64,000 nucleotides of DNA from the NCBI GenBank assembly GCA_011391635.1, contig JAABQD010000005.1, positions 1 through 64,000 on the forward strand, read 5' to 3'. Origin of the DNA: Sulfurimonas sp. Its GTDB lineage: Bacteria > Campylobacterota > Campylobacteria > Campylobacterales > Sulfurimonadaceae. Below the pieces are notes generated by a model. It was not told the origin of the DNA. It did not search any database and saw only the letters and a program-made list of their open reading frames with translations. Both the position numbers and the translations under genes were made by a program. Position 1 is the stretch's first letter, and every line of letters begins with the position of its first letter. Of this stretch, positions 1,515 to 34,117 are shown one piece after another.

Positions 1515-2765
1515 TTACGCTCTTGTTTGTCCGCTTCCGTAGATTTTATATTTGTAGGTTGTAAGCCCTTCGATTCCCATTGGTCCACGAGCGTGAAGTT
1601 TGTTCGTACTGATGCCTACTTCTGCCCCAAAACCAAACTCTCCACCGTCTGTAAATTGTGTGGAAGCATTGAGATAAACACATGCAGAATCGACACCGTT
1701 TAGAAACTCTTCGGCTGTTGTATAGTTTTCTGTGATGATAGCGTCAGAGTGTGCTGAACCATAAGTTTGGATATGCTCTAGTGCACCTTGGACATCTTTG
1801 ACTATTTTGATAGAAAGGATATTATCAAGATATTCTGTATGAAAATCTTCCTCAGTGGCATGTGGAACTTCTATAATTTTGGCTGTATTTTCACACCCTT
1901 TGAGTGTTGTTCCTTGAAGGTCATACTGCTTTTTTAAAAGAGGTAGAATCTCATTTGCGATACTTTCATGCACCAAAAGTGTCTCCATCGCACCACAAAT
2001 CCCTACTCTTCGACACTTCGCATTCACACATATGCTCAAAGCTTTTTGTATCTCCGCATCTTTGTCGATGAAAGTATGACAAAGCCCTTTATCGTGCTTA
2101 ACTACGCTCACGGTTGCATTCTCACTCACATAACGAATAAGCCCTTCCCCACCTCTTGGGATAATCAAATCTACATATTTATCCATTTTAATAAGCTTCG
2201 AAACACCCTCTCTTGAAGAGTCTGGAATGAGAGAAATCAAAGCTTTTGGCAGGTTGTTCTTCTCTAGTGTTGCTTGAAGTATTTGAGCAATTGAGCGATT
2301 AGAATTTTCCGCCTCTTTCCCACCTTTGAGGACACACACATTGGAGCTTTTAAAACACAGAGCTGCTGTGTCACTTGTCACATTTGGACGCGATTCGTAG
2401 ATGATACCGATGACCCCTATCGGGATGCTCACTTTTTCTATTTTGAGGTTTGTCTCCGTAACCCAGCCATCGAGAACACGCCCTACTGGCTCTTTGAGTG
2501 CGGCGATATCTTCGATAGCTTTTGCCATGCCCTCGATTCTTTTCTCATCCAAAAGGAGTCTATCTTTGAGTGCAGCTGAGAGATTGTTTTTATCCGCATC
2601 CGACATATCCTGAGCATTTGCTTCGATTAAATTCATCGTATTTGCACGAAGTGCGTTCGCCATATCTCTTAAAATTCTATTTTTCTCACGACCGCTTAGA
2701 GCTGATAATACGCGACTCGCAGATTTTGCTTCTTCTAAAAATTGTTCCACTGTTTTAGCCTTCAT
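1515..2765 (-). CDS. proA: Gamma-glutamyl phosphate reductase
   Basis: ORF 416 aa with GVIGIIYESRPNVTSDTAALCFKSSN and GRGPMGIEGLTTYKY-type C-terminus. Confidence 0.97.
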   Translation of the reverse strand: MKAKTVEQFLEEAKSASRVLSALSGREKNRILRDMANALRANTMNLIEANAQDMSDADKNNLSAALKDRLLLDEKRIEGMAKAIEDIAALKEPVGRVLDGWVTETNLKIEKVSIPIGVIGIIYESRPNVTSDTAALCFKSSNVCVLKGGKEAENSNRSIAQILQATLEKNNLPKALISLIPDSSREGVSKLIKMDKYVDLIIPRGGEGLIRYVSENATVSVVKHDKGLCHTFIDKDAEIQKALSICVNAKCRRVGICGAMETLLVHESIANEILPLLKKQYDLQGTTLKGCENTAKIIEVPHATEEDFHTEYLDNILSIKIVKDVQGALEHIQTYGSAHSDAIITENYTTAEEFLNGVDSACVYLNASTQFTDGGEFGFGAEVGISTNKLHARGPMGIEGLTTYKYKIYGSGQTRA

Positions 2766-2830
2766 ATATGCCTAGGTAGGCAGATTGGTATCATAAATGC
2801 TATACTACCATAAAATCATTTGGGACGACT

Positions 2831-3589
2831 ATGAAAACTATCACTTTTATCGGAAATGGAAATATGGCACTGGGTATTGCGAAGGGCTTGAAGAGTAAGT
2901 ATAAAATAGAAGTCGTTGGCAGAGAGATGAAAAAGCTCGAACAATTTGAAAAAAGTATTGGTGTGAGTGTAGAAAAACATCTTTTGGACGGGTTTGATAT
3001 GACGGACAAAATGGTACTTTTATGCGTAAAACCTGCGAATGTTGCAGAAGTTTCACAAAAGATAAATGGCAAAGCAAAAGTTCTCTTTTCTGTTTTAGCG
3101 GGAACTTCACTTGAAAAACTTCGCACCCATTTCAATCCACATGCCGTTGTAAGAACAATGCCAAACTTAGCAGCGAGTATTGGCAAATCTATGACAACAC
3201 TCACAGGCGATGAAGCGTACAAAGATGAAGCAGAAAAACTCTTAGGTACTATTGGTGCAACGCTCTGGTTAGCAAGTGAGAAAGAGATAGATATCGCAAC
3301 AGCTTTAGCTGGAAGTGGACCAGCCTATTTAGCACTTATAGCTGAAGCATTTACAGATGGAGCAGTCAAACAAGGCTTAAAACGAGAGGATGCAATGAAG
3401 CTCATGCGAGGTTTATTTGATGGATTTGGCTCACTTATACAAGTGATACACCCTGCACTTCTCAAAGATGGTGTCATGAGTCCTGGAGGTACAACAGCTG
3501 CTGGATACAGTGCCTTGGAAGATGGTGGTGTACGAAGTGCGTGTATCAATGCAGTTGAAAAAGCGTACAAAAAAGCTACAGAGCTTTAA
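2831..3589 (+). CDS. proC: Pyrroline-5-carboxylate reductase
   Basis: ITFIGNGNMALGIAKGL Rossmann start; AGSGPAYLALIAEAFTDGAVKQGL; MSPGGTTAAGYSALEDGGVR. Confidence 0.97.
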   Translation: MKTITFIGNGNMALGIAKGLKSKYKIEVVGREMKKLEQFEKSIGVSVEKHLLDGFDMTDKMVLLCVKPANVAEVSQKINGKAKVLFSVLAGTSLEKLRTHFNPHAVVRTMPNLAASIGKSMTTLTGDEAYKDEAEKLLGTIGATLWLASEKEIDIATALAGSGPAYLALIAEAFTDGAVKQGLKREDAMKLMRGLFDGFGSLIQVIHPALLKDGVMSPGGTTAAGYSALEDGGVRSACINAVEKAYKKATEL

Positions 3590-3599
3590 CGCATAAATA

Positions 3600-3633
3600 T
3601 TTCCACATGCCAAAAGAAGTTGGCATGTGGAAA
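3600..3633. terminator. Perfect 14-bp stem / 6-nt loop hairpin made of two inverted copies of the repeated motif, between convergent proC and thrC
   Basis: TTTCCACATGCCAA-AAGAAG-TTGGCATGTGGAAA, 11 nt after the proC stop and 6 nt before the thrC stop. Confidence 0.75.
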
Positions 3634-3639
3634 TCTAAA

Positions 3640-5112
3640 CTATAAAAACTTCAATATCTCTTGTTCAATATTTTCTTTTTCTATAATTGTATCTTGTGCT
3701 ATTTTTTTAGAAAATAGCCCTTTAATCATTGCTGGAATCTCAAGCTTTGCAGTTTTTGAGATAGATTCAAGAGCTACACTGTCCTCAGCATCCACTTCGC
3801 CCGTAAGTGCATTTGCAATCACTGGAGAAAATTTTGTCCACTCAGCTGTTGAATAGACGATAGTTTTAATCGCAGGGTTTGAGCAAGTCTCAAATGCTTT
3901 AAAACATGTCGCAGTATGAGGATCCATCAAATAACCATCATTTTGGAATGTATCTTTGATATACTTTTTACCCTCATCCCCAGTACAAAAATCTGCATCA
4001 AAACACTCTCGAAGTGTTGCAAGTTCATCTTCACTCAATTCATACACATTTTTACTCTCTAAATCATCCATCAACTCTTTTGTTCTTTTATCTCCAAACA
4101 AATCATAAAGAACTCTCTCTACATTCGAAGATTTCAAGATATCCATCGCTGGAGAAGTCGTACAAATGACTTTTGAGTCTCTGAGGTCATATTTTCCTGT
4201 TTTGATGAGTTTTGTGAGAACATTGTTTTCATTGGAAGAGATGATGATTTTCTCTACAGGAAGTCCCATTTTCCATGCATAATAGCCACCAAGAGCATTA
4301 CCGAAATTTCCACTTGGAACATTTAGATACACTTTTTCGCCCATAGCAATTGCATTTTGACGCACTAGTTCTAAATAACTGTGAATATGATAGATAATTT
4401 GAAAAATAATGCGTCCAAAGTTTACAGAGTTTGCAGCAGAAAGAAGAACATTTTTCTCTTTTAATGCTTTGTTAAATTCAGGTGAAGCCAGAAGTCTTTT
4501 AAGAGCATTTTGTGCATCATCAAAAACACCGTTAATCCCGATAACTTTGAGGTTTGTTGCATCTTCTGTAACCATCTGAAGTCTTTGAACATCACTCGTT
4601 CCGCCATCAGGATAGAGACAAGCGACTCTAACATTTGCACGGTTTTTGAATGTTTCTAATGCTGCTGGACCTGTGTCTCCACTTGTAGCAGCTAAGATGA
4701 GATAGTTTTCGTTATTTTTTTGTGCTATTGAAGAGAGTACAACGCCAAAAGGTTGCAGTGCCATATCTTTAAATGCACGAGTTGGTCCATGATAGAGTTC
4801 ACTCACAAAGAGATTCTCTTTTACTTTAACAACAGGAACAGGATTTTTTGAATCATCAAAATTATCATAGAGTGCAAGAGCCTCTTCTATCACACTTTTG
4901 TCTATATCTATCTCAAATCTTGCCAACATGTCACTTGCCAACTCTTTATACGAAGAGTTCAGATGTTTAGTTAAAAACTCTTCGCCTAAATCTGGAAGTA
5001 TCTCAGGGACATAAAGACCGCCAAAAGAGGCAATCGGACTTAAAATAGCTTGTGAAAATGTTACACTCTTTGGTTTTGTTGCATCGCATCCGCGTGTTTG
5101 AATAAAGTTCAT
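3640..5112 (-). CDS. thrC: Threonine synthase
   Basis: LFVSELYHGPTRAFKDMALQPFG; LAATSGDTGPAALE; VPSGNFGNALGGYYA. Confidence 0.97.
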   Translation of the reverse strand: MNFIQTRGCDATKPKSVTFSQAILSPIASFGGLYVPEILPDLGEEFLTKHLNSSYKELASDMLARFEIDIDKSVIEEALALYDNFDDSKNPVPVVKVKENLFVSELYHGPTRAFKDMALQPFGVVLSSIAQKNNENYLILAATSGDTGPAALETFKNRANVRVACLYPDGGTSDVQRLQMVTEDATNLKVIGINGVFDDAQNALKRLLASPEFNKALKEKNVLLSAANSVNFGRIIFQIIYHIHSYLELVRQNAIAMGEKVYLNVPSGNFGNALGGYYAWKMGLPVEKIIISSNENNVLTKLIKTGKYDLRDSKVICTTSPAMDILKSSNVERVLYDLFGDKRTKELMDDLESKNVYELSEDELATLRECFDADFCTGDEGKKYIKDTFQNDGYLMDPHTATCFKAFETCSNPAIKTIVYSTAEWTKFSPVIANALTGEVDAEDSVALESISKTAKLEIPAMIKGLFSKKIAQDTIIEKENIEQEILKFL

Positions 5113-5224
5113 TAGTATGCTCTTTTTTAATTTTTTGAAATTGTAGCGAATTGTCTATAAAACTTATTTGAGAGTGGCATGTCCAAAATTAATTTTTGTA
5201 TTTCCACATGCCAGAAAGTAGAAC

Positions 5225-6499
5225 TTACTGAAAAAGTTCTACTGGATTGATATGATATGACTTTTGTGTCACTTCAAACACAAGTTCATCCGTAATACGC
5301 CCTATTGTAAACCCTTTTTTGACTTTTTGACCCTTTTCTATATTCGGTGCTATTTGTGCAAGATTTGCATAAATTGTATGCAGACCACCATCGTGTTCTA
5401 CAATGACGATATTATTTAAAACAGCTGTCTTATCTGCATAAATAATCTTACCATTGAGTACCGTTTTTACTTTTGCATTTTGCTCCGTTGATTTGAGGGA
5501 GATAGATTCATTAAAAATTTTCAGACCATAGACAGGGTCTGTGTACGCTCCATATTTTTTTGTAACGGTATAGGAATCAAGCGGTGCAATAGTTTTTTCA
5601 CCAGCATATTTTGCAGTTTTTGCCTCTTGAAAACTATCGCCTACTTTTTTTACAGAGGGGGCATCCTTACTTAAAACTATAGGTTTATTATCAAAAGCAA
5701 CTTTGATATCCTCTTTCTCTTGTGCTTCTTTAATCGCATCCAACTTGATGATATTTAATTTCTCAAGCGTCTTTTTAAGTTCATCTTGTTTACCAAGAAG
5801 CTCTTTTAACTCTTTTTTATACGCTTGTTCGTCAATCTCAAGCTTTTCTAACAACTTTTTATTAGCTGTATGAGCAGCCGCTATCTGTTTTCTTTTTGCA
5901 TCAATAGTCGCTATTTCAAGCTCTAAACCACTCGTTTGTTCCTTAAGTACCTCTATTACCTTCGAATTATCAAAAAAGTTTTGATTCAAATTGTTTACTT
6001 TATTTTTAGAGGCATTGAGCATTTTTTGAAGTACCTCAAACTCAATCAATGATTCAGCATCAACTGCGTACGCTTCTTCTACAATGAGAGAGAGTGAAAC
6101 ACTCTGTGCAATCACAAAAACCAACTCTTGTTCTATACTATCTTGCTCATTTTTCAACTTGCCGTTGTATGTTTTAAGTTCAGTGAGTTGTGTTTTAATA
6201 TTTTTATAATTTGCTTCTTTATCTTGAAACTCGAGCTGAACTTGTTTCAAACTCTCTTGCTGCTTGCTTATTTCCTCTTTTTGCTTGATGATTGCATCTG
6301 CATTCTCTTGCATTTTTTTATTCACATTTGTGTAATCTTTACTGTAAGAGTCTAGCTCATTACTTGTTGTATCAATTTTTTTATTGATTTCCTCTTTTTT
6401 GGGGACTTCAATTTTTTTAGGAGAATCAGCTTTTTTGCTCGAATCCTCTTTTGCATCTAAAATTATAAAAAAAAGACAAATTATAAATAAACGAATCAT
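5225..6499 (-). CDS. Murein hydrolase activator / M23-type peptidase, EnvC-like (coiled coil plus LytM domain)
   Basis: N-terminal signal sequence, long coiled coil, C-terminal IVIVEHDGGLHTIYANLAQIAPNIEKGQKVKKGFTIG; adjacent to ftsX/ftsE. Confidence 0.88.
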   Translation of the reverse strand: MIRLFIICLFFIILDAKEDSSKKADSPKKIEVPKKEEINKKIDTTSNELDSYSKDYTNVNKKMQENADAIIKQKEEISKQQESLKQVQLEFQDKEANYKNIKTQLTELKTYNGKLKNEQDSIEQELVFVIAQSVSLSLIVEEAYAVDAESLIEFEVLQKMLNASKNKVNNLNQNFFDNSKVIEVLKEQTSGLELEIATIDAKRKQIAAAHTANKKLLEKLEIDEQAYKKELKELLGKQDELKKTLEKLNIIKLDAIKEAQEKEDIKVAFDNKPIVLSKDAPSVKKVGDSFQEAKTAKYAGEKTIAPLDSYTVTKKYGAYTDPVYGLKIFNESISLKSTEQNAKVKTVLNGKIIYADKTAVLNNIVIVEHDGGLHTIYANLAQIAPNIEKGQKVKKGFTIGRITDELVFEVTQKSYHINPVELFQ

Positions 6500-7320
6500 G
6501 CCTCTTCTTTATGCCCTAACACTATTAACATCGCCAATAAAACAGATAAAAAGATAGAGACACTAAAGAGAAGTATAAAGTCATCTATCTTGTTAAATAT
6601 TACGACACTAATGCCTATATTGCTAAATTGTTGTAAAACATACGGTTCCATTGAAATATAGGTAAAAACACCAAAAGCAATAAGACTAGCAATAAATGCA
6701 TCCACAATAGAGAGTCTAAATAAAACAGCAGAACGCAACCACATCGGAGCACCAAAAAGCCCCATAATACTCATTCTCTCACTATGTTTGAGTTGCCAAA
6801 TTCTTAACTCTTTAAAAATAAGCAATGAAGTCACGATAAATATAGTGATTGCAAATATTCCTATCATTCCTTTAAAAAGAAGCAGTAGCTTATAAATTTT
6901 GTCATGATTATGTGCAAAATCTTCTACTTTTGTGACGGAAGGATTTTGCAGGATACTTTTTGTCAACTCTTTTATCTCATCAGGCGAAGGATAAGTATTG
7001 AGTTGCAATTTATAAAATTTTGGAAGAGAAACTTTAAGGAGTTCTATATTTTTATTATTCATATTTGTATTTAGTCGCTTGATAACACTATCGGGAGTTA
7101 TTTCTGAAACACTGCTCACGAGTGGACTAAAATTCATACTTGTATTTGTATCAATACTCTTTTGACTCACCACAATAACAGAGTAACTATCTGTCAAACC
7201 TTGCTTATAAGCATTGATAGACCTATCCACGACAATAAAAACCTGCATAGAAAAAATAATACTAAAAAGGGCAATAATAAGAGAGAGATGATTTTTAATT
7301 GACTGCATGAATTCTCCCAT
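6496..7320 (-). CDS. ftsX: Cell division protein FtsX-like permease
   Basis: 4-TM FtsX topology, adjacent to FtsE ATPase and EnvC-like gene. Confidence 0.85.
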   Translation of the reverse strand: MGEFMQSIKNHLSLIIALFSIIFSMQVFIVVDRSINAYKQGLTDSYSVIVVSQKSIDTNTSMNFSPLVSSVSEITPDSVIKRLNTNMNNKNIELLKVSLPKFYKLQLNTYPSPDEIKELTKSILQNPSVTKVEDFAHNHDKIYKLLLLFKGMIGIFAITIFIVTSLLIFKELRIWQLKHSERMSIMGLFGAPMWLRSAVLFRLSIVDAFIASLIAFGVFTYISMEPYVLQQFSNIGISVVIFNKIDDFILLFSVSIFLSVLLAMLIVLGHKEEA

Positions 7321-7978
7321 ACTCTATATGAAAATGTTTAAACTCAACATTCATACTATCAGGAATATGGTGTGTAACGACAATAACTGTTGTCTTTAAC
7401 TGCGTATTTGCACCCTCTAAAAGATTCCAAATAAGTTGTGATGAATAATCATCAAGATTTCCTGTTGGCTCATCTGCTAAAATGAGAATAGGATTATGTG
7501 CCAAAGCTCTCGCCATTGCGACCCTTTGCTGTTCACCCCCACTCAGTTCAAGTGGGTATTTTCCAGCTTGATGCTTGAGTCGCACATGTTTTAATAGACT
7601 ATCTACTTGTTTTGTTGTTACGCTTTTTTCATATCCATTGATAATAAGTGGAAGCATTATATTTTTCTCAATCGTCCACTCTTTTACGAGTTTGTAATCT
7701 TGAAAAACTATGCCTATGTGCTTTCTTAAAAAATTAAGTTTTGAGTTAGAGACTTTTCTAAGCTCCACTCCACCGACAATCAAACTTCCATTTTTAGGTT
7801 TTAATGCCCCATAAAGTGATTTGAGAAGTGTTGATTTACCACTTCCACTCGCACCTGTAATAAAAACAAAACTGCCAGAATTTATAGAAAAACTCACCTG
7901 ATTGATAATCGCTTCATCATTAGAATACGATAAAGATAAATTATCAGCAATTATGACTTTATCCATGCAATACTCCAT
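7295..7978 (-). CDS. ftsE: Cell division ATP-binding protein FtsE
   Basis: Walker [11 protein letters not shown], signature [15 protein letters not shown], Walker [14 protein letters not shown]. Confidence 0.9.
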
Positions 7979-9131
7979 CTAAAATTTTATGCGACTCTAA
8001 ATTAGCTCTCGATTTCAACGGCAAATAAGGGTAGTATGATACTTTGTTTTTGTCAATGACCACATAAAGATGCTCTGGTCGATCGTAACTTCCCATTGAA
8101 ATTCTTGCCATAACTCCATTTTGTGTTGTATAAACTCTCTCAAAATGTAAAAAACCTGCATCAAATCTTTTGGTTACACCATGAAGTTCAAGTATCTTGG
8201 CATGTGGAAGTGTTGCAGGAGCAAAATCAAAACTGCCTTCAACGATGAGAGGAGCAGACTCCTCTTCATTAATCATCGTAACATCATAAATGTTTTTTTC
8301 CATCTTTTTCCATCGGTCTTCATACTTACTGCTGATGGCGATATCTCTATTTTTATTGATATGAAGCACTGTTTTATGAAAAGCGATAAAAGTTTCATAC
8401 GAATAAGCATAATAATTTTCACTATCTGTACGAAGTTCAAGTGTTCCACCTACTTTTAAAACTCTTCTTGCTTCTTCAATAAAGGAGGTAGAGATAACTC
8501 TGCGATGTGGTTTTTTATCCCAAGGAACAGGAAAATGAACATAGATTTTTCCAACAATATTCGATGGAACAAGCTCCATGAAAAGTCTTGCATCATAATC
8601 AAGTACAAGTAAATTATCAAGTTTTTGGATATTGACTTGCTTAAGCACCTGTTCTATCGAAGGTCTATGAATCTCAATCCCAATAAATAAAATATCTGGA
8701 TTTTGTGCTGCTTGATGGAGGATATGTCGCCCTGAACCAAATCCCACCTCTATACGCACTTCTCTGTCTTGTGGAAAATTTGAAGCAAAAAATTCTATAC
8801 TTTTAAGAAAATCCACCTCTTCTAAATGCATATTTTTTGCATTTGTTGGAACATTTGAAGAGAGAATTTTCAATCCCGCTACCTTGGCATAACACATCAA
8901 TGCCTTATGCACATTAAAGATAGAAGCCGGTCTTGTCAGCTTATCTGATTTGAGTAGGTTTTTGTTCTCCTCTTCTTTGACAAGTAAAAAGAACTCATCT
9001 TCATCAACTTTAACACCAATAAGTTTTTCATCACTATGGTTTGCATTTTTTGCTATAAAATCAAATGTCACACCATCTTCGGCATGTGGAAACTCTATCT
9101 CTTTAAACTCTTCTATATGTAAATGTGGCAT
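7959..9131 (-). CDS. trmB: tRNA (guanine-N7)-methyltransferase
   Basis: [53 protein letters not shown]. Confidence 0.93.
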
Positions 9132-10519
9132 TAAATCTCAATTAAATCTTGGATTGGTTGTACAACTTCTTGGCTATTGTCTGGATTTTGCATTAGCTCT
9201 TGATCATCATTACTTGGAGCTTTTGTTGCACCCTGTTTTGAACTACTTTTTGGGATAACTCTCCCTTGTGCTTTGGTCGTTGTGAATTTTGCTTCGATAC
9301 TTGGATCGGATTTTATAGAGTTTTGATCTACTCCATATACCTGATACGTGTAAGTTGTCTCAGGCTCTATTGCAGAATCTACGAAAGTGTGTCCACTTAT
9401 ACCTGTAAACTCTTCACTGTTTGAGCTAAACAAACCTTTTCTCGATTTTTTTGTCACAGTAAAATTGACAATATTCGCATCTCCGCCCATCCAGCTAAGA
9501 ATTATTTTATTATCTTCTAATCTCGCCTCAGTAATTGATAAAGCACCCATTTTACCAAGTGTTTGTCCTTGAACAGACTGTTTTGTATTGTCACTCTCAA
9601 GCCCATCTCTATCCACAACACTTACACGATAAAAATAATTTTTCCCATCTTCATTGATAGACTCAATAAGTGAAGTCTCTTTCGTGCGTTTAAGAAGTTT
9701 ATAACTTCCATCGAGCTTATCAGATTTATAAACACTATATCCACTAAAATCTTCCGCATCTGTTGGTGTCCAAGTAACTTTGATTCTTTTTGGTAAATCT
9801 CTTGTTGCTGTGATTTCTGTAACACCTATTGGTAGTACTTTTGTCGTTGTTGTTACTTCCATACTTGGTGCAGAGGTAACACCCTCATAGGTTAAAACAC
9901 GAATGCGATACTTATAGACATGCCCATCTTCCAATTTTGTGTCTATGTACTCTATGTTTGTGCGTCCTTCAACTGTTGCAATTTTCTCCCAATCCGTATC
10001 TTCGAGAGTGCTTCGCTCTATAATATAGGCTTTAATTAACTTACTTTCATGAGGCTTCCAGATAATTTTTGCACTTCGTGGCATACTTTGAGCTGTATGC
10101 ACCCATGGTACAGATTTAATTGGAGCAAGAGAACTTACTACAGTAGGTCTGCTCTTTTGTGACTCTGTTGTATCTGAGAATGTTTTGAATGAGTAACTAT
10201 ATTTTGTGTCTGGTTCTATTTTTGTATCGACATAATGTGTAGCAAAGCGACTTTCAATAGTATCATAATACTCTTGTTGCGGTTCACCCTTTCTCATAAT
10301 TTGTCTATAAACATACACACCTTTGACTCTTGGATCATTGATACTTTGCCACTCAAATGCGATAGAGCTTGTATCAACAAAAACTCCATTTTGTGTTAAT
10401 GTAACAACTGGAAGTGTTCCATCTAACTGTGCTTTGTCACTTGGTCTAGGTTTATTAGAACAACCATTAAGAATGAGGAGTGAAACTGTGCAGAATGTAG
10501 CGAGTGTCCATAACTTCAT
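9131..10519 (-). CDS. Fibronectin type III domain lipoprotein
   Basis: Lipobox [10 protein letters not shown]; repeated FN3-type units ([33 protein letters not shown]). Confidence 0.85.
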
Positions 10520-11438
10520 CTATTTGCTCCTTTGTAAATTTAGAATCTATATAATTTTTAACTGTTTTATCAAGCTCGGCTACAAAAAATAGCTTCTCTT
10601 TTGTTGTTGGATGAATGAAATATATTACATATGCGTGGAGCAAAATTCGTTCCGATTTCTCCTCTTTTGGGCTTAATGCATAAATATGATCACCAATAAT
10701 ATGTCGATTAAGTGTCTCTAAGTGAACACGAATTTGATGCGTTCTTCCTGTAAAAAGTTTACATGCTATCAATTGACTCTTCTCATCCTCTGAGAGTGCC
10801 AAAGTATGAAACACTGTTTTTGCATATTTTCCACTCTCTACACATGCCATCTTCAATCGATTCGAGGCACTTCTGCCAATACTTTTTTCAATCGTTGTGC
10901 TATCTTCTTTGAGAGGTGGAGTTATTACTGCGATGTAGTATCTTCCCATACTTTTATCTTGAAGCTGTGCTGATAAAAACTCATGTGCTTCATTATTTTT
11001 TGCAATTACCATTGCACCACTCGTACCCTTATCAAGTCTATGAACGATACCATGTCTCTCTTCACCGCTCAAAGTGGACAATCGTATCCCTTTGTGTTTG
11101 AGCCAATCTACTAGAGTTGCCTCTTTTACACTTGGTGCTGGATGCACAGTGACGCCACTTGGTTTATTGATAACTAAAACAGCTTCATCTTCATAAAGAA
11201 CTTCTACATCAAAATCTACCGCCAAAGCTTTTTCTATCTTGGCATGTGGAAACTCTACTTTAATTATTTGTTCTAGCTTTAGTTTAACACCTGGACGCGA
11301 GATGAGTTTATTATCCACATAGACACACTCTTGTTTAATAAGTTGAGCGATTTGTGAACGAGTTTGCCCTATTTGCGAAGCTAAAAAAGTGTCTAATCGT
11401 TCTGTTGTATCGCTTACATAGCTTTTTATATCGCTCAT
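10467..11438 (-). CDS. RluA/RluD family pseudouridine synthase
   Basis: S4 domain; HRLDKGTSGAMVIAKNNEAHEFL; LFTGRTHQIRVHL. Confidence 0.93.
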   Translation of the reverse strand: MSDIKSYVSDTTERLDTFLASQIGQTRSQIAQLIKQECVYVDNKLISRPGVKLKLEQIIKVEFPHAKIEKALAVDFDVEVLYEDEAVLVINKPSGVTVHPAPSVKEATLVDWLKHKGIRLSTLSGEERHGIVHRLDKGTSGAMVIAKNNEAHEFLSAQLQDKSMGRYYIAVITPPLKEDSTTIEKSIGRSASNRLKMACVESGKYAKTVFHTLALSEDEKSQLIACKLFTGRTHQIRVHLETLNRHIIGDHIYALSPKEEKSERILLHAYVIYFIHPTTKEKLFFVAELDKTVKNYIDSKFTKEQIDEVMDTRYILHSFTPHS

Positions 11439-11490
11439 TTGTGTCCCTTATTGTGATACAATTTCATAATTTTAACTTGGAGTTACGAAT

Positions 11491-12603
11491 TTGTGGAGAT
11501 TTGATAAGCATATTTTATCACAATTTGACTTTTTTTCCATCATTTTAATCATCCCGCTTGTCTTAACTTCGAATTGGCTCATCTCTGAAGCTGTTCCAAT
11601 GCTTGCACAAAAACAGATTGCCTATATTGGCGTATCTTTGTTATTTTTTATTTTTATACTTTTTTTGCCTATACGACGCATGAATTGGCTTATTCCACTT
11701 ATTTATTGGCTTAGTATCGCTCTCTTGCTAGGAGTTGAATTTTTTGGACACTCACGACTCGGTGCACAGAGATGGATAGATATACCCTTTATCAATGCAA
11801 CTATTCAACCTTCTGAATTTGTCAAACCAGCACTTATTCTCATGTTAGCCTATTTGATTCAGAAAAACCCTCCTCCGCTCTACGGCTATAAACTCAAAGA
11901 TTTTTCTATCATCAGTGCATATATACTTTTGCCATTTTTTCTTATTGCAAAAGAGCCCGATTTAGGGACAGCTCTCGTACTTTTACTGATAGGATATGGT
12001 GTTTTATTTTTTGTAGGAATTCACTGGAAAATAGTAGCTGGAGTAGTCATTGTCATAGGTATAATGGCTCCTGTTACCTATGAATTTTTACTCCATGATT
12101 ACCAACGAACGAGAATCACAGATTTCGTCAGCGAAAAACCATCCTATCATGTGCAACAGTCAATTATAGCCATTGGTTCGGGAGGATTTACTGGTAAGTC
12201 CAAAGAGGATGCGACACAGACACAAATGAAATTTTTACCCATCGCCACAAGTGATTTTATTTTTGCATTTTTAGTTGAGAGAGCTGGTTTTGCTGGGGCG
12301 TTGGGGGTCATTGTACTCTATATGGCCATCATACTGCATCTCATGAGTTTGAGCTACTACAATAAAGATTACTATATCAAGGTCGTGACCATATCTATCT
12401 CTTTTATGTTTTTTATTTATATGTCTGTCAATATTGCAATGACTATGGGTTTTGCCCCTGTTGTCGGAATTCCTTTACCTATGTTTAGCTATGGGGGAAG
12501 TAGTTTTATCACCTTTATCATTCTCTTTGCTATTATGCAAAATTTGATTACCTTTCGATATAGAGATATGTATGATAACCGTGGAACTAAAAGATTTGTA
12601 TAA
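11491..12603 (+). CDS. rodA: Rod shape-determining protein RodA (FtsW/RodA/SpoVE family)
   Basis: RLGAQRWIDIPF...QPSEFVKPALIL; MGFAPVVGIPLPMFSYGGSSFITF. Confidence 0.93.
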   Translation: MWRFDKHILSQFDFFSIILIIPLVLTSNWLISEAVPMLAQKQIAYIGVSLLFFIFILFLPIRRMNWLIPLIYWLSIALLLGVEFFGHSRLGAQRWIDIPFINATIQPSEFVKPALILMLAYLIQKNPPPLYGYKLKDFSIISAYILLPFFLIAKEPDLGTALVLLLIGYGVLFFVGIHWKIVAGVVIVIGIMAPVTYEFLLHDYQRTRITDFVSEKPSYHVQQSIIAIGSGGFTGKSKEDATQTQMKFLPIATSDFIFAFLVERAGFAGALGVIVLYMAIILHLMSLSYYNKDYYIKVVTISISFMFFIYMSVNIAMTMGFAPVVGIPLPMFSYGGSSFITFIILFAIMQNLITFRYRDMYDNRGTKRFV

Positions 12604-12628
12604 CTTTTTAACCCTCTAAGAAATAAAA

Positions 12629-14311
12629 ATGCAGCCCACCCATGTACTCGTAATAGACGATAGCAAACTCATCACAAAACTTGTCACAAAAGCTCTTCTG
12701 ACAAATAAAATAAAAAATCATCACTTTACCCCAGAGAATATTTATATTGCACATGATGGGATGCAAGCTTTTGAAATTTTAGGAAAAAATAAAAATATCT
12801 CCCTTGTCATCTCAGATGTCATGATGCCTATACTCAACGGTGAAGAGCTTATAGAGATATTAATTGATATTGGCAAAATCGATAGTTTAGAGTTGTATTT
12901 TATTACAACTCCCAATGTTGCAACTAGTATGAGTCCAACCAGCAAAGAGTACAGTGTGGGAATTATTCATAAGCCATTTAATGACATCACTTTTTGCGAA
13001 CAAGTCAATATCCTCCAATTGCAATATAAGACAAAAGTACAAAAGCAAACGGAGATAAAACTCGTTCACGAGAAACAAAAAAGACATATTTGCACATGGA
13101 TAGATAGTTACTTTGCACAAAAAGGGTTCATACTCTCGACACAAATACTTCTTCCCTTTGTAGAATCCGAATTCAAACACTACAACACTATTGATAATGA
13201 TGAACTCTATATGATGCTAAGCTCCATCCTAGAAAACTATTTTGCAGAGATAAAAAGTGAAAATATTATCGATTTTGGAGTGCTTCGCGAGATATATAAC
13301 TCTTGGCATAAGCCTGATGCATACAGCTCTCTGGATTTAGAAAATAATTTTCAAGATATCATTACACATGCCAAAGAGATTCTTGAAGATACTTCTACAA
13401 AAGAGGAGATACAATATGCTCTTATCCATCCTATCAATCACATCTTATCTCTTGCTAAAAAAAATATAAAGCATACAATTCCTCTCTGTTATGATGACTT
13501 TTTTCCCTATTTTTTTGACTTAATAGAGCTACTTTCCAAACTAGATGCAAATTTTCAAACGAAGCGTGTTTTAGCACTCATAAGCCATATCGATGAAATT
13601 CAAAATATGAAAAGCAAAATATTTAACTATACAGATGCTTCAAAAATTGTAGAGGTATTTCCTATTTTTAAAGAAAACAAGAAAACTCTCTCTTTATTAC
13701 AACACCATTTTAAGCATTTTTATAATCAAATTCAAAATGAACTTGTTCCCTATTATGTTTATGAAGTCAATAGTACACTTTGGAATCAAGCAAAAAGTAC
13801 ACCTGTTATTGCAAATTATTTAAAAGAAAAACTCAAAAATAAAATGCCAAATACTCATAATGCTCTCTACTATTTTAAAAAAATAGAAAAAGAAGAGATG
13901 AAAAAATTTATAAAATATGACAAAGTCAAAATTGGAATCCTCAGTAACAATAGAGAACTATTAAGTATTTTCAAGAATAAACTTACTGAACATTTGCCTC
14001 TATTGGAAATTTCAGTCCATACGAACGCTGCCATACTTCAAAGTAGTATGAGCATCACGCAGTACAATACGCTCATAATAGATTTAGATTTCCAAGATAC
14101 AGTTTTTAATAATGGACTACAACTTTTTAATTACTTTCAAAAAAAAGTTCCACCCACACTCGAAATTACTAATAATAAAGGAATATATTTTTTAGCATCT
14201 GCAAAACAGGTAGAAGTATTACATAAAAAAGCAACTAAAACAGACTATAATATACTCTTAAAACCTATAAATGAAAAAAATATTTACAATAAAATGTTTT
14301 GGGAATCATAA
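12629..14311 (+). CDS. Response regulator with N-terminal receiver domain and long uncharacterised C-terminal region
   Basis: HVLVIDDSKLITKLV...LVISDVMMPILNGEELIEIL; remaining ~420 aa unassigned. Confidence 0.8.
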   Translation: MQPTHVLVIDDSKLITKLVTKALLTNKIKNHHFTPENIYIAHDGMQAFEILGKNKNISLVISDVMMPILNGEELIEILIDIGKIDSLELYFITTPNVATSMSPTSKEYSVGIIHKPFNDITFCEQVNILQLQYKTKVQKQTEIKLVHEKQKRHICTWIDSYFAQKGFILSTQILLPFVESEFKHYNTIDNDELYMMLSSILENYFAEIKSENIIDFGVLREIYNSWHKPDAYSSLDLENNFQDIITHAKEILEDTSTKEEIQYALIHPINHILSLAKKNIKHTIPLCYDDFFPYFFDLIELLSKLDANFQTKRVLALISHIDEIQNMKSKIFNYTDASKIVEVFPIFKENKKTLSLLQHHFKHFYNQIQNELVPYYVYEVNSTLWNQAKSTPVIANYLKEKLKNKMPNTHNALYYFKKIEKEEMKKFIKYDKVKIGILSNNRELLSIFKNKLTEHLPLLEISVHTNAAILQSSMSITQYNTLIIDLDFQDTVFNNGLQLFNYFQKKVPPTLEITNNKGIYFLASAKQVEVLHKKATKTDYNILLKPINEKNIYNKMFWES

Positions 14312-14362
14312 GATACTTCAACTCTTTTTAGGCTCTCACTAAAACTATTCCAAGGGGACACA

Positions 14363-14812
14363 ATGCCAGCGAATCAATCTATATTATGGGATAATGCGTA
14401 CAGTTTAGGTATCCAAGAGATAGATATACAACACAAAAAATTATTTGAAATTGTTAATAGACTCTATGCTTTAGATGAAGAACATAGCACAAAAGAGGAA
14501 CTCAAAACTATTTTATATGAATTTAGCGACTATATGCGTACACACTTCAAAGATGAAGAGGAGTATATGAATTCTATACACTTCCCTGAACTGAGTGAAC
14601 ATAAAAATATTCATGAAACTATCATACAACATCTTGCAGAACTTATCAAAACACCAGCAAGATTAGGAATCATAAAAACAAAAATGAAAGTTTTAGCCAA
14701 ACATACGCTTATAGACCATATCATGCATGAAGATATTAAAATAAAACTCTTTAAGCTCTCCGATAAAACAAAACAAAATAAAATAGATGAAGAGATATTT
14801 GAGTTGGCTTAA
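14363..14812 (+). CDS. Bacteriohemerythrin
   Basis: WDNAYSLGIQEIDIQHKKLFEIVNRL...HFKDEEEYM...HKNIHETIIQHL...HIMHEDIKI. Confidence 0.93.
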   Translation: MPANQSILWDNAYSLGIQEIDIQHKKLFEIVNRLYALDEEHSTKEELKTILYEFSDYMRTHFKDEEEYMNSIHFPELSEHKNIHETIIQHLAELIKTPARLGIIKTKMKVLAKHTLIDHIMHEDIKIKLFKLSDKTKQNKIDEEIFELA

Positions 14813-14885
14813 TGTCAATAAATTGAAAAAACAGTTTAGTAAAAATTATTGTGATTGAAATGAATATTTTGGAGATGAAAGGTAG

Positions 14886-14962
14886 TGGCGCGGTGGACGG
14901 GACTCGAACCCGCGACCCCCTGCGTGACAGGCAGGTATTCTAACCAACTGAACTACCACCGC
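14886..14962 (-). tRNA. tRNA-Asp(GTC), CCA encoded
   Basis: Reverse strand GCGGTGGTAGTTCAGTTGGTTAGAATACCTGCCTGTCACGCAGGGGGTCGCGGGTTCGAGTCCCGTCCACCGCGCCA; cloverleaf folds, anticodon GTC. Confidence 0.96.
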
Positions 14963-15068
14963 GCATATAATAAAAAAAAACTTGTATTTTTTGATAGATG
15001 TGCTAAGGTTGAAGCGAAGCATACTAAAAGTATGTGAGTTTCAGGCTTTGTGCATATATCACAAAATA

Positions 15069-15144
15069 TGGTGGGCATTACAGGACTCGAACCTGTGACA
15101 TCTACCTTGTAAGGGTAGCGCTCTACCAACTGAGCTAAACGCCC
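15069..15144 (-). tRNA. tRNA-Val(TAC), CCA encoded
   Basis: Reverse strand GGGCGTTTAGCTCAGTTGGTAGAGCGCTACCCTTACAAGGTAGATGTCACAGGTTCGAGTCCTGTAATGCCCACCA. Confidence 0.96.
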
Positions 15145-15162
15145 TTTAAAAACACCAAAAAA

Positions 15163-15238
15163 TGGCGACCCCTAAAGGATTTGAACCTCTGTCCCTACCA
15201 TGAAGTGATAGTGTCCTTGGCCACTAGACGAAAGGGTC
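15163..15238 (-). tRNA. tRNA-Glu(TTC), CCA encoded
   Basis: Reverse strand GACCCTTTCGTCTAGTGGCCAAGGACACTATCACTTCATGGTAGGGACAGAGGTTCAAATCCTTTAGGGGTCGCCA. Confidence 0.95.
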
Positions 15239-15272
15239 ACTTTCATAAACAATAAGGTTTATAACAAAAAAA

Positions 15273-15349
15273 TGGCGCGGTGGACGGGACTCGAACCCGC
15301 GACCCCCTGCGTGACAGGCAGGTATTCTAACCAACTGAACTACCACCGC
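15273..15349 (-). tRNA. tRNA-Asp(GTC), second copy
   Basis: Same tRNA sequence as 14886-14962. Confidence 0.96.
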
Positions 15350-15478
15350 GTATATAAAAAATTTGTCTTTCATTAATATTTAAAGAAAAACTTGTATTTT
15401 TTGATAGATGTGCTAAGGTTGAAGCGAAGCATACTACAAGTATGTGAGTTTCAAGCTTTGTGCATATATCACAAAATA

Positions 15479-15554
15479 TGGTGGGCATTACAGGACTCGA
15501 ACCTGTGACATCTACCTTGTAAGGGTAGCGCTCTACCAACTGAGCTAAACGCCC
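15479..15554 (-). tRNA. tRNA-Val(TAC), second copy
   Basis: Same tRNA sequence as 15069-15144. Confidence 0.96.
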
Positions 15555-15569
15555 ATAAATCGAACTTTA

Positions 15570-15645
15570 TGGTGTCCTGTGATGGATTCGAACCATCGGC
15601 CACATCATTAAAAGTGACGTGCTCTACCAGCTGAGCTAACAAGAC
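15570..15645 (-). tRNA. tRNA-Lys(TTT), CCA encoded
   Basis: Reverse strand GTCTTGTTAGCTCAGCTGGTAGAGCACGTCACTTTTAATGATGTGGCCGATGGTTCGAATCCATCACAGGACACCA. Confidence 0.95.
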
Positions 15646-15718
15646 ATTTTCCTCTATTTCTTAAGAGGTCGAAATTATAGGCAAATAGATTTTGTTTGTC
15701 AAGTTTTTGCCATTAAAT

Positions 15719-16807
15719 TTAGAAAAATAACTCTTTGTCTATGAGAATAAGCATTTTGATAGCATATAATACACTTTGATGTTGTATATAGTTTCTATCG
15801 CCCTTTAAATTCAAATGTACTTCTTTGTGTTTTGTCCTACTTCTTACCCCGATAAAGACAGTTCCAACGGGTTTAAGAGGAGTTCCACCACCCTCTCCTG
15901 CTATGCCACTAATGGAGAGAGCATAATCCGAATGACTCACATTCATAGCACCTTCACTCATTTGTGAAACGATTTCCGCACTTACTGCACCAAACTCTTC
16001 TATAGAGTTATGTTCAACACCGAGCCAATTCTCTTTGAGTTCATTCGAATATGTGACAAGTGTGCCATCCACGATTTTTGATGCCCCATTGTTTTTTGTA
16101 AAATAGTAGCTCAAAAGCCCGCCTGTACAACTCTCAGCAAATGAAACTTTTTTTTGATTTTTTGAAAGAGTTTCTATAATATACTGCACAATATTTGATG
16201 CAGATATCAAATTATTTGGTATGAGCTGTTTTGCAGAATTGATAAACTTCGAGATATTTCCATATTTTTTACTCTCTATGTCTATTCGAAGCCATCCATC
16301 TACCAAGATGAGAATATCAAGTGTTACATCATACATTTGTGCTATTGGAGTAAGAATTGCCAAAGCACTCTCTTTGTCTTCATCAAAAATATGAATTACC
16401 GCATTCGACTCTTTTTTTTGTATCAGCACCTCTGGGAATTCTTGCATTTCATCTACATGCATCACATTAATAACAGAATTTTGATACTCCAAAAGATAAC
16501 TTCCATCTTCATATATTGAACTATTCGAGGGAATAAGCATATTTTCTTTGAGAATTTGATTATCACTTGTAACTGTACTTATAAGTTTACCAATTGTTGA
16601 AAAATTTTGTTTTGTCGTAACTATCACTAGTTTTGTAGTGGAGTGAATCTCTTTTTCTAGGTATAAAAAAAGTGAATTATCATTCTCTTTAAAATAGGTG
16701 ACTTGTGTTATATAGTTCGTATTTTGTTCTACTTTTCTTATGACATATTCTCTCAAAGATGTATTGTGTAAAAACTTATTTCCTATAAATAAAAGATGTA
16801 ATTTCAT
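15719..16807 (-). CDS. CinA family protein (nicotinamide-nucleotide amidohydrolase C-terminal domain)
   Basis: VSFAESCTGGLLSYYFTKNNGASKIVDGTLVTYSNELKENWLGV...ALSISGIAGEGGGTPLKPVGTVFIGV. Confidence 0.88.
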   Translation of the reverse strand: MKLHLLFIGNKFLHNTSLREYVIRKVEQNTNYITQVTYFKENDNSLFLYLEKEIHSTTKLVIVTTKQNFSTIGKLISTVTSDNQILKENMLIPSNSSIYEDGSYLLEYQNSVINVMHVDEMQEFPEVLIQKKESNAVIHIFDEDKESALAILTPIAQMYDVTLDILILVDGWLRIDIESKKYGNISKFINSAKQLIPNNLISASNIVQYIIETLSKNQKKVSFAESCTGGLLSYYFTKNNGASKIVDGTLVTYSNELKENWLGVEHNSIEEFGAVSAEIVSQMSEGAMNVSHSDYALSISGIAGEGGGTPLKPVGTVFIGVRSRTKHKEVHLNLKGDRNYIQHQSVLYAIKMLILIDKELFF

Positions 16808-16933
16808 GCTGTTGGAGCCTCTTCAAACTAGATTCATTTTGGTTATTGTAGCACCTTTCATTCCTCTTTAAAGAAGCTTTTAAACCCTTTAGAGATATAA
16901 TGCAAAACTTTTTACATAATTTTCGAGGTACAG

Positions 16934-19696
16934 ATGGACTACAAAGAAACACTACTTTTACCTACTACAGAGTTTGCCATGCGAGGCAACTTAACACAAA
17001 ATGAACCTCTTCGATATGCCGCATGGTATGAGAAAAAAGTCTATGACAAAATGAAAACTTTGCGTAAAGATGCACCAAGTTTTACACTTCATGATGGTCC
17101 TCCCTATGCAAATGGTCATACGCACATCGGTCATGCACTCAATAAAATCCTCAAAGATATCATTGTAAAACACAACTATTTTAACGGCAAATCTGTTCGT
17201 TTTACTCCAGGCTGGGATTGTCATGGTTTACCGATTGAACAGCAAGTTGAGAAAAAACTTGGCGGAAAACAGAAAAAAGAGTTACTTGAAACTGCAAAAA
17301 TCCGTGAACTTTGTCGTGCACATGCCTCAGAATTTGTAAACATTCAAAGAGATGAGTTCAAAAAACTTGGTATTTTGGCGGACTGGGAAAATCCTTATGT
17401 CACGATGGATTATAAGTTTGAAGCGAACATCTACCGCACACTCTGCGGTGTTGCAAAAAAAGGTCTTTTGATTGAGCGAAGCAAACCAGTTTTTTGGTCA
17501 TGGGCGGAGAGAACTGCACTCGCTGAAGCAGAAGTTGAGTACGAAGACAAAGAGTCTCACTCAATTTTTATCGCTTTTGAACTGAGTGATGAAGCAAAAG
17601 CTAAACTTGGCATAAATGGTAAAGCTGCACCAGTTATCTGGACAACAACGCCTTGGACAATCCCTGCAAATACGGGAATTTCACTCAATCCAAATGAAGA
17701 GTATGTACTCACAACTACGGGCTATATCGTAGCAAAAGAACTTCTAAACTCTCTCATAGAGCAGAATGTTTTAAGCGGAGATATCGCACAAACATTCAAA
17801 GCAACAGAGTTTGAAAACTTACTTGCAATCAACCCACTCAACGCTAGAACTTCTCGCATAGTTTTAGGTGAGCATGTTTTGATTGACAACGGAACAGGTT
17901 GTGTTCACACTGCTCCAGGACATGGTGAAGATGACTACCGTGTTGGACTTGTATATGATTTAGAAGTGGTTATGCCAGTTGATGAAACGGGTTGTTTTGA
18001 TGAGACAGTTGTAGGGCTTGGTCTGATTCCACATGCCGAAACTTTTGTGGGCAAACATATCTTTAAATCAAACGATGAAATTATCGAACTTATGGGTGAA
18101 AGTGTTTTAAAAGTAAGTAAATTTACGCACTCCTACCCACATTGTTGGAGAAGTCATACTCCACTTATTTTTAGAGCGACGAAACAGTGGTTTATCTCCG
18201 TAGATGAAAAACCGCTAGGCGAAGATAAAACTTTAAGAGAGATAGCTCTGAGCGAAGTAGAAAAAACATTATTCGTGCCTGAGAGTGGAAGAAAAAGACT
18301 CACTTCTATGGTTGCAAACCGCCCTGATTGGTGTATTTCTCGTCAGCGTGACTGGGGTGTGCCGATAGCATTTTTCAGAGTAAAAGCAACTGGCGAAGTT
18401 CTTTTGGATGAAAAAGTTTTAAACTTTACAGCTATGATTTTTGAGATGAAGGGAAGTGATGTTTGGTACTCGATGCCAATTGAAGAGCTACTTTATGCAG
18501 GAAGTGGTTACAAAGCAGACGAACTTGAAAAAGTAACGGACATTTTAGATGTTTGGTTTGACAGCGGTTCCACATGGAATGCGGTTTTAAAATCTCGCAA
18601 CTATGATGCAGGTGCATATCAAGCTGACCTTTATGTAGAAGGAAGCGACCAACACCGCGGATGGTTTCAATCTTCTCTCTTTTTAAGTGCAGCAGTCGAA
18701 CACAAAGCTCCTTACAAAGGCGTTTTAACGCACGGTTTCACAGTCGATGAAAAGGGCGAAAAAATGTCCAAATCCAAGGGCAATGTTGTTGCTCCTGAGA
18801 GCGTTTTGAAAGAGTACGGAAGTGAAATTCTTCGTCTTTGGGTTGCTTCAAGCGACTACCAAAGTGACCTAAAAATCTCAGATGGCATCTTAAAACAGAC
18901 TGCTGAAAACTACAGAAAACTTAGAAATACTTTTAGATTTTTGATGGCAAATATCAATGACTTGGAGAGTTTAGTTCCACATGCCGAGATGGGCGAACTT
19001 GACCAATGGATAGTTGGAGTTGCAAAAAAAGTTTTCGACGACACACACAAAGCATTTTCAAACTACAACTTTGTGCATGGAATGAGTTTGTTAAATAACT
19101 TCATCGTTAATGAGTTAAGCGGGATTTATCTTGACATCACAAAAGACAGACTCTACTGTGACGGTGCAAATGACAAACACCGCCGTGCAAGTCAGAGTGC
19201 AATGGCTATCATCACAAAATCACTCCTGCTTTTAATCGCTCCGATTTTGACTTATACAGCGGATGAGATTATCGACAATGCACCAGCGATTATCAAAGGC
19301 GATGCAAAAGATATTTTTGAGTTAATGTACGCTCCAATCGAAGCTGGAGAGAGTAGTTTCAACGCCGAGTATATGAATGAAGCAAGAGAAGGTTTTTACG
19401 AAGTAGTCGATAAACTCAAAAAAGAGAAAATCATCAAAAGTACACTTGAGCTTGTTTTGCATACCGAATCCAAAATAGCACTTGATATGAACACAACGGA
19501 AGCTGAGGATTGGTTCGTCGTCTCTGGCATATTTGAAGATAAACCAGAAGAAGAGATACTTGGAACTTTTAAAGTCAATGAAGATACTTTTATTATCTCA
19601 AAAGCGACAAAAGCAAAATGCCCAAGATGTTGGAAATACCATTCAGAAAATGAAGAATCCACATGCCAAAGATGTAGCGAGGTTCTAAGTGCCTAA
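16934..19696 (+). CDS. ileS: Isoleucyl-tRNA synthetase
   Basis: [42 protein letters not shown]-terminal zinc site CPRCWKYH...CQRC. Confidence 0.98.
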
Positions 19697-19820
19697 CTTC
19701 ACAGAGCCAGTTTCTTTCACATTTATCGCAGTTACCGTAGCTGTGATATTTGTCATAATAGGTGTCGGGATTGCACTTGTTCAATTAGGAAAAAAGTCTA
19801 GGAAATTAGAGGATTTATAA
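19689..19820 (+). CDS. Small single-TM protein (43 aa, GTG start) overlapping the ileS stop
   Basis: GTG-initiated frame [43 protein letters not shown]; below the ORF-track length cutoff. Confidence 0.55.
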
Positions 19821-19830
19821 CTTTAACTTT

Positions 19831-21579
19831 TTACAATAAACGCTCCAGCTCTTTAAAACTACAAATATTTTTATCGGCTGTATGAATTGAATTGTGGTGT
19901 ATGTTTACAAGAGTTCCTTGCATCATCTCAAGGTTCATATAAAAAGATTCTTCAATTGGTGTCTCCTCATCATGGAGAACAATAAAATCATCTCCATGCA
20001 CCCTAAAAACTATAGAATCTTTAAATGCATTTTTTAAATACTGTGCAAATGCAGCAAGAAGTTTGCTCCCCTCACTCCATCCATGTTTAGTGTTATACTG
20101 ATTAAAATTACTCATAAAAAAAATATTTAGGTATGCACTTTTTTGCTCATGGCATTTTTTAGTTAACATAAAATCTAAATATTCTTCATTAAATATGCCA
20201 GAGACTTTATCTTTATAAAAATAGGAAAATCTTTCCATCTCAAGGATATTTATTGGAAGCTGAGAAATATTAGCGTCAATTGTTACATTTTTCAATACTT
20301 TAATAGTCGCAATTACAACATCTGGATGGAACTGCGTGCCAGAGAACTTTTCAATCTCGATTAAGGCTTCTTCAATATTTTTTCTACCCTTATATATACG
20401 ACTTGTAGTCATAGCATCAAAGGCATCTGCGACGGAAAGGATATAGGAAAAAATATCTATCTGCGTACCTTGTTTTCCTGATGGATACCCTTTGCCGTCA
20501 TAGTGTTCATGATGGAAATGAATAATATTTGCCAACTCTAAATACATAGGAATCTGTTTTAAAAATACATACCCGTTTTCAGCATGGCTTTTGATAAGGG
20601 CATACTCAATGTCATCCAGTTTTCCCGGTTTTAGGAGTATAGAATCGGGAATATTCATCTTCCCTATATCATGCAGCATCCCTGCTTGATAAATCTTTTC
20701 GAGTTCATTTTTTTCATACCCCATCTCTTGAGCAATCATGACAGAATATTTTGCAACTCTCTGAGAATGTCCACCCGTATAGGTATCTCTTTCTTCCAAT
20801 ATCTTAACCAATGCGAACAATGTTTTTTCATAATTTTCTAAGATTTCACTGTTTAACAACTCTTTTTCATCATTGGATATTTTGAGCTCTTTTAAGGAGT
20901 TTATGAGTTTTTCTTCAACTTTGGATATCAAGTTAACCACATAATATAAAATACTAAAAGAGAGAAGTATAAAAATAGAGATAAAAATAGCCCCCGCCTC
21001 TTTAGCTTTATTTATTTGACCGAATATATGGCTTAACTTTTGAGATTGTATCAGTTTAAGCTCATCAAGTAAAAACTCTTCATATTGTTTTATATAATCT
21101 ATAGAGTTCTTTAAGTCTGATAGTGCCAAGTAATAATCACTGCTTTTATTTGTATTGAGACCTTCGCCAAGCCTTCTTAACAGTGAGCGTTCATGAGTGT
21201 TACTCTTATCAAATAAGTTGTTTTGAAGCTTTATTTCTATTTTTTTTGATTCATCATCTATGACATGCCAAAAAGTCACAAAGTCTTCATAGTTTATTTC
21301 TTTATTGTCTTCTATTGCTTTAAAATACTTGTCAAAATTACCTTTAGAGTTCGACCAAAGGAGCATTTCTGCTTTTAAATTTTCTGTAGTTAGAAGTCTT
21401 TCCGTATAATATTTAAACTCAAAAAGTGAATTATATGATTTTTCATAAAAGTTAGATTCCTTCTCAAGCATTTCTATCTCATTAAAATAAAAAATAGTTA
21501 CAACTATAGCAATAATAAAAGTTGTAAAGACAGCACCAAATCCATAAAGTGCTATTTTTTTAATGCTTAGGTGTTTCAT
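19831..21579 (-). CDS. Membrane HD-GYP domain protein with C-terminal GGDEF-like remnant
   Basis: Two TM segments around a ~170-aa extracytoplasmic region; HDIGKMNIPDSILLKPGKL...HHEHYDGKGYPSG; C-terminal region resembling GGDEF without a canonical GGDEF motif. Confidence 0.88.
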   Translation of the reverse strand: MKHLSIKKIALYGFGAVFTTFIIAIVVTIFYFNEIEMLEKESNFYEKSYNSLFEFKYYTERLLTTENLKAEMLLWSNSKGNFDKYFKAIEDNKEINYEDFVTFWHVIDDESKKIEIKLQNNLFDKSNTHERSLLRRLGEGLNTNKSSDYYLALSDLKNSIDYIKQYEEFLLDELKLIQSQKLSHIFGQINKAKEAGAIFISIFILLSFSILYYVVNLISKVEEKLINSLKELKISNDEKELLNSEILENYEKTLFALVKILEERDTYTGGHSQRVAKYSVMIAQEMGYEKNELEKIYQAGMLHDIGKMNIPDSILLKPGKLDDIEYALIKSHAENGYVFLKQIPMYLELANIIHFHHEHYDGKGYPSGKQGTQIDIFSYILSVADAFDAMTTSRIYKGRKNIEEALIEIEKFSGTQFHPDVVIATIKVLKNVTIDANISQLPINILEMERFSYFYKDKVSGIFNEEYLDFMLTKKCHEQKSAYLNIFFMSNFNQYNTKHGWSEGSKLLAAFAQYLKNAFKDSIVFRVHGDDFIVLHDEETPIEESFYMNLEMMQGTLVNIHHNSIHTADKNICSFKELERLL

Positions 21580-21591
21580 ATTCTCTCTATC

Positions 21592-23100: not shown

Positions 23101-23211
23101 CCTTCATACAATTATTATTAGTTTAAATAGTAGTAAAATAAAACTTACTCTTAGCTGACACACTGACAACTATTGTATGGCTTCATTTCATATTACACTA
23201 TAAAAATAAAT

Positions 23212-23430
23212 ACATTTTGCTATCATACACCCCATAATTTATAACCATAGGAAAACTAGTGATTACATTAAAAGAAGCATTAAAATTAAGTAAAGAAGAA
23301 CTAGAAAATTTCAAAAACGATTTAAAAGCGAAGATAGAAGTGCGTCCTGAATTAAACGCGTACATCGATGTACTCAACATGGGCGGAGGTGTGCCGATAG
23401 CTATTAAGGACAATATCCAAGTTAAAGATT
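23212..23430 (+). pseudogene. Duplicated 5' fragment of gatA plus its upstream region
   Basis: About 95% identical to 29212-29430 (offset exactly 6000 bp); frame ends after ...[14 protein letters not shown]. Confidence 0.9.
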
Positions 23431-23607
23431 GCTCACAATATTGATTTAGCACCAAAAGTAAATTCACTTAAAGAAGGTGGTTTTGTAAAGTTTTGTGGCG
23501 AATATGAAAATAACGCAAAGGGTGGAGTTGTACGTTGGACGCACCGTGATCCAAATAAGCGTCATGTTGGTGGTTGGCTAGAATATAACGGTCAAAAGTA
23601 TGAATAA
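23431..23607 (+). pseudogene. C-terminal fragment of a DUF3465 family gene joined to the gatA fragment
   Basis: AHNIDLAPKVNSLKEGGFVKFCGEYENNAKGGVVRWTHRDPNKRHVGGWLEYNGQKYE*, in a different frame from the gatA fragment; N-terminal half absent. Confidence 0.7.
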
Positions 23608-23662
23608 CTGAATTGTTACATTGAGGTATGCCCATATTTAATTTTTACTTCTTCCAACTCTT

Positions 23663-30605: not shown

Positions 30606-30639
30606 AGTGTAAATATACAACTAAGAAGAGTGAACTCTA

Positions 30640-31146: not shown

Positions 31147-31156
31147 AGGAACTCCA

Positions 31157-31726: not shown

Positions 31727-31729
31727 CTT

Positions 31730-32637: not shown

Positions 32638-34110
<1,473 letters not shown>

Positions 34111-34117
34111 CACCCTT

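Follow-up and report, generated by a model that had tools for sequence, protein, structure and literature searches.

In the window, i.e. the 64,000-nucleotide stretch of Sulfurimonas sp. DNA that was analysed, the genes proC and thrC are convergent, with 50 nt between their stops (3589 and 3640), and this gap contains a hairpin (Table 1). A sequence-only reading of this DNA had described a 14-bp perfect stem with a 6-nt loop between the two converging stop codons, about 50 bp apart; its coordinates, sequence and placement were all borne out, and a flanking A-T pair (3599/3634) extends the stem to 15 bp. RNA folding of the hairpin yielded about -21.8 kcal/mol, with a z of about -7.7 versus shuffled sequence, on either strand. 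A U-tract directly after the stem was absent (T then CTAAAC on the + strand and ATTTATG on the - strand, past the AAA of the arm), the site was not among the predictions of a terminator scan, and the comparison with Rfam returned no match close to the gathering score.

Table 1. Features of the proC/thrC junction and further copies of the repeat in the window
Feature	Position	Strand	Remarks
proC, pyrroline-5-carboxylate reductase	2831..3589	+	TIGR00112 above cut-off; hairpin begins 10 nt past the stop
5' arm of hairpin	3600..3613	+	Exact repeat copy TTTCCACATGCCAA
Hairpin loop AAGAAG, 6 nt	3614..3619		ACTCTC in the relative G107, with the arms intact there
3' arm of hairpin, TTGGCATGTGGAAA	3620..3633	-	Second exact repeat copy, in opposite orientation to the 5' arm
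thrC, threonine synthase	3640..5112	-	TIGR00260 above cut-off; stop 6 nt from the hairpin
Second inverted pair, opposite geometry (GGCATGTGGAACTATTTCCACATGCC)	34118..34147		7-9 nt past the stop of the gene at 32665-34110
Copies of the core CACATGCC, n = 41	1857..63779	both	E.g. 1857, 5205, 8199, 9081, 11241, 18030, 29602, 38354, 51485, 56033, 61139

Each arm of the hairpin is one copy of a repeat, of which the aligned copies have the consensus (A)TTCCACATGCCAA. Exact TCCACATGCCA occurred 1041 times in the assembly (2.35 Mb, 84 contigs), divided 530/511 over the strands, versus once for the reversed control. Similarly, the exact 14-mer of the arm was found 257 times in the whole assembly versus 0 for the reversed pattern, and 34 copies with at most two mismatches were present in the window versus 0.8 expected, indicating that the arm is not a product of chance. 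The most common 9-mers of the window were CCACATGCC and TCCACATGC with their complements, at 34 copies each. In an unbiased sample of 464 kb, composite sites had a mean spacing of 1.9 kb and were more clustered than random (CV of 1.19 versus 0.95), the gaps between motifs reaching 16 kb. One region of the window without the repeat (19670-29600; 9.9 kb) contains mainly signal-transduction-like genes and may be a recent acquisition. Gene context was analysed in about 0.46 Mb of unbiased sequence plus 20 stretches picked around pairs. According to gene models from a simple ORF caller, which makes the genic and intergenic fractions approximate, about 70% of the copies were located within coding genes, and the intergenic copies of the unbiased sample amounted to 80 versus about 20 expected, an excess of about four-fold. 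Coding copies favoured one frame: of the 104 copies in sense orientation, 78 encode Pro-His-Ala.

The repeat was conserved far above its surroundings between the genome of the window (G000) and G107, which, like all other G-numbers, denotes a genome of the same genus. Nucleotide identity between the two was 82.6%, and 60 of the 65 aligned copies were intact, versus 21.5% of random 10-mers; for intergenic sites alone, these values were 15/17 and 28%. The alignment revealed a conserved footprint of about 12 bp, with an identity of 0.97-1.00 over the repeat core and of about 0.83 across the alignment. Third codon positions were 97.8% identical within copies versus 65.3% elsewhere; the word is under strong selection or drive. 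At the proC/thrC junction, both arms were kept in G107 with a different loop, and the hairpin was kept with one mismatch in G083; the thrC end carried rebuilt triples of the repeat in G105 and G144. Between the motif pair and thrC, G107 also possesses an insert that contains a long inverted repeat distinct from the motif (AAGATTGCTTC...GAAGCAATCTT, about 13690-13790 of the stretch compared), which is not present in the window. The hundreds of copies and the palindromic pairs in intergenic DNA would suit a selfish or mobile short repeat (REP- or MITE-like), although most copies are in coding genes and in a preferred frame, the surroundings of the aligned copies shared no longer sequence, and orthologous positions were retained across 17% divergence. 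This origin is already disfavoured and is considered very improbable.

Maintenance of the repeat was probably lost in one line of the genus. In G143 and G148 (about 80% identity), TCCACATGCCA counts were 86 and 73, with two and zero pairs, respectively; only 3 of 32 aligned sites were intact, and most of the remaining ones were still recognisable with few changes, i.e. copies in decay. A thrC tree (single gene, 30 genomes) placed G143/G148 as sisters of G000/G107 (100/99), and the more distant relatives G083 and G105 retained 6/12 and 11/16 sites, respectively, which makes loss the simpler reading.

Besides single copies, head-to-head inverted TCCACATGCC pairs at most 30 nt apart were found 52 times genome-wide versus 0 in the control, and this order was favoured among close pairs (11/21, p 0.006, unbiased sample). 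Short-loop inverted pairs were mostly situated 1-22 nt past stop codons. Of the intergenic pairs, 20/39 lay between convergent genes, versus 26/193 intergenic gaps (Fisher p about 9e-7), and pairs between tandem genes adjoined the upstream stop and not the downstream start (p about 1e-5 or less); some pairs came from stretches picked for holding pairs, a choice that leaves their position relative to genes unbiased. Hence, the expectation that inverted pairs would be enriched downstream of genes held in the genome-wide tally, the intergenic pairs hugging stops and favouring convergent genes. Loops were mostly 5-16 nt long in intergenic pairs and mostly 17-29 nt in intragenic ones. When 85,462 species were searched for a head-to-head pair, the named records that had one were MAGs carrying the label Sulfurimonas, Sulfuricurvum, Helicobacteraceae, Campylobacterales or simply 'bacterium'; the inverted pair was not found in viral contigs. 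A 3.3-kb contig binned with the archaeal MAG Candidatus ainarchaeum STB_43 also ended in a pair, but it probably belongs to Sulfurimonas and was misbinned.

The position of the pairs and the hairpin that they form are consistent with a plausible role at 3' ends, either as a looser kind of terminator or in protection against exonucleases. A stricter interpretation is that the hairpin itself is a bidirectional transcription terminator, with an uptake word recruited as in Neisseria. This concerns the pair and not the word, is compatible with a function of the word in DNA uptake, and is regarded as possible but somewhat doubtful. It agrees with a hairpin that is stable from both strands, with the preference for convergent genes and upstream stops, and with loops that are short between genes and longer within them. 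However, T-rich flanks (at least 5 T in 8) occurred in 26/80 flanks of head-to-head pairs versus 78/266 flanks of all copies, thus without excess and with no indication that a U-tract is selected for, so that the label of terminator is not established. A canonical terminator rule was satisfied at only 11/51 gene ends with a pair, but this test is weak, since the same rule is seldom satisfied in this genome, as seen at pair-free gene ends (19/266). Consequently, the terminator proposed in the sequence-only reading is upheld as far as the stability of the hairpin and its position after stops are concerned, and not with respect to the U-tract, which was no commoner at pairs, or to the terminator scan, in which the site was unlisted. 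Compared with known bidirectional intrinsic terminators, the convergent position and the both-strand hairpin are alike, whereas the Sulfurimonas pairs lack an enriched U-tract.

Among more than 100 members of the genus sampled, the first word was dense in a minority. In other congeners (noted in G095, G117, G140, G142, G138 and G053), a palindromic second word, YTACATGTAR, reached about 300-550 copies per genome versus 3-10 in controls; in the first-word-dense genomes, it was at background. The second word displayed a 2.9-fold intergenic enrichment and a dominant coding frame, and was rarely paired, although a pair of it occurred at the thrC end in G140 and an imperfect one in G142. In G125 and G223, ACATGCCA pairs with a different 5' part were present. 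G001 contained an over-represented GCTCACGCAG-like word (33 CTCACGCA in 80 kb versus 1.3 expected), possibly a third dialect, and AGATGC was a weaker over-represented word in G163, G129 and G099. In 40-kb samples of G091, G073 and G089, no word stood out as strongly over-represented. Because of the shared ACATG core, the mutual exclusivity and the location, we infer that all these words may be dialects of one system; the palindromic nature of the second word and its rare pairing count against such a joint reading.

Two further explanations of the word were considered. Firstly, its many copies and strong site-specific conservation might suggest that it is bound by a protein of chromosome organisation, segregation or recombination, in the manner of KOPS, matS or Chi. 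From general knowledge, however, the equal use of both strands, the intergenic excess and the inverted pairs at gene ends are unlike KOPS or Chi, as are the clade-specific presence, the decay in sister species and the replacement by another word in congeners, which renders this function unlikely. Secondly, the word could mark self-DNA by methylation, a methyltransferase modifying a base that the uptake machine then reads. A precedent exists within the phylum, as self-DNA recognition in Campylobacter jejuni relies on CtsM-methylated RAATTY (PMC8468864), and the second word, being a palindrome, would be apt as the target of a methyltransferase. Yet, the first word is long and has no palindromic symmetry, and a label of this kind is judged quite improbable. 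The precedent also counts against an uptake word as such, since C. jejuni, although of the same phylum, recognises a short methylated motif instead of an over-represented word of about 12 bp (PMC8468864).

The explanation that we consider likely is that the repeat represents a DNA uptake sequence of a Sulfurimonas clade, i.e. a self-recognition label for natural transformation, the hairpin consisting of two facing copies past converging genes. Comparatively, the analogy with uptake sequences, which had been put forward for this DNA before, is well supported by the density of the word, its presence on both strands, the intergenic enrichment, the conservation of sites, the clade-specific dialects and the decay after loss. 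A surface DNA receptor of a type IV pilus- or type II-like competence machine would bind the word of about 12 bp in free double-stranded DNA, which would result in preferential uptake of same-clade DNA. Uptake and recombination would then spread and keep the word where it is harmless, chiefly at gene ends and in the permissive Pro-His-Ala frame. Paired copies might build up right past stops, where a stable RNA hairpin does no harm or is of use, and such a hairpin would end or protect both converging transcripts at their 3' ends. We infer uptake, the receptor and any role in transcription or RNA stability from these comparative patterns.

Regarding the machinery, genes for ComEC (partial at a contig edge), DprA and seven type IV pilin-like proteins were retrieved, as well as a cluster encoding a secretin, an MshE-type ATPase and GspF/PilC (C15:76-83 kb), the GspF of which has homologues across nearly the whole genus. 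These competence genes fit an uptake system, but represent weak evidence because such genes are widespread. A type II secretion cluster (G000 C1:264-275 kb) was dropped as a candidate uptake machine, its GspF being without a close match in several dense genomes. One possible receptor, a very divergent FimT/GspH-like pilin (G000 C52; gene at 124-771 of the stretch examined), was tracked across the genus; it occurred in motif-bearing and motif-losing genomes alike, so that its presence does not follow the word, a point that may count against the uptake reading. The same pilin shares only 50% identity with its best G107 match, versus 96% for ThrC, pointing to very fast evolution or exchange. The literature yielded neither uptake nor transformation data for these organisms, and searches of its open-access part for uptake sequences of Sulfurimonas, Epsilonproteobacteria or Campylobacterota met with no report on point, an absence that is no proof.

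To our knowledge, uptake sequences are well established in two lineages, namely Neisseriaceae and Pasteurellaceae. On balance, we favour an independent system in Sulfurimonas (Campylobacterota), whose words bear no sequence relation to DUS or USS and whose dialects, at least two in number (TCCACATGCCA and YTACATGTAR), split the genus into exchange groups; some lineages would be in the course of losing it. If true, this would be a further independent case of uptake sequences, in environmental sulfur-oxidising bacteria, and would open to testing the causes for which such words arise, the splitting of gene pools by dialects and the consequences of loss; indeed, the sister pairs G000/G107 and G143/G148 would constitute a ready natural experiment on loss. 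Under the uptake reading, natural transformability is also to be expected of these chemolithotrophs, which are mostly uncultured. The USS of Pasteurellaceae occurs throughout the genome, both within coding frames and as pairs between genes. The Sulfurimonas word is likewise genome-wide and found in coding frames and intergenic pairs, but its sequence and host are unrelated to those of USS, and its conserved footprint stops after about 12 bp. It also differs from DUS in that it has an unrelated sequence, belongs to another phylum, occurs at about 0.5 per kb, forms pairs without a U-tract bias and has probably been lost within a group of close species. In Neisseria, DUS are conserved at 97% identity versus about 85% (PMC2397512), and the DUS of Neisseriaceae come in dialects across related species (PMC3630211). 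The Sulfurimonas word resembles them in being a short, non-palindromic word with about a thousand or more copies on both strands, conserved far above its flanks, with inverted pairs near gene ends and with different words in related species (PMC3630211, PMC2397512).
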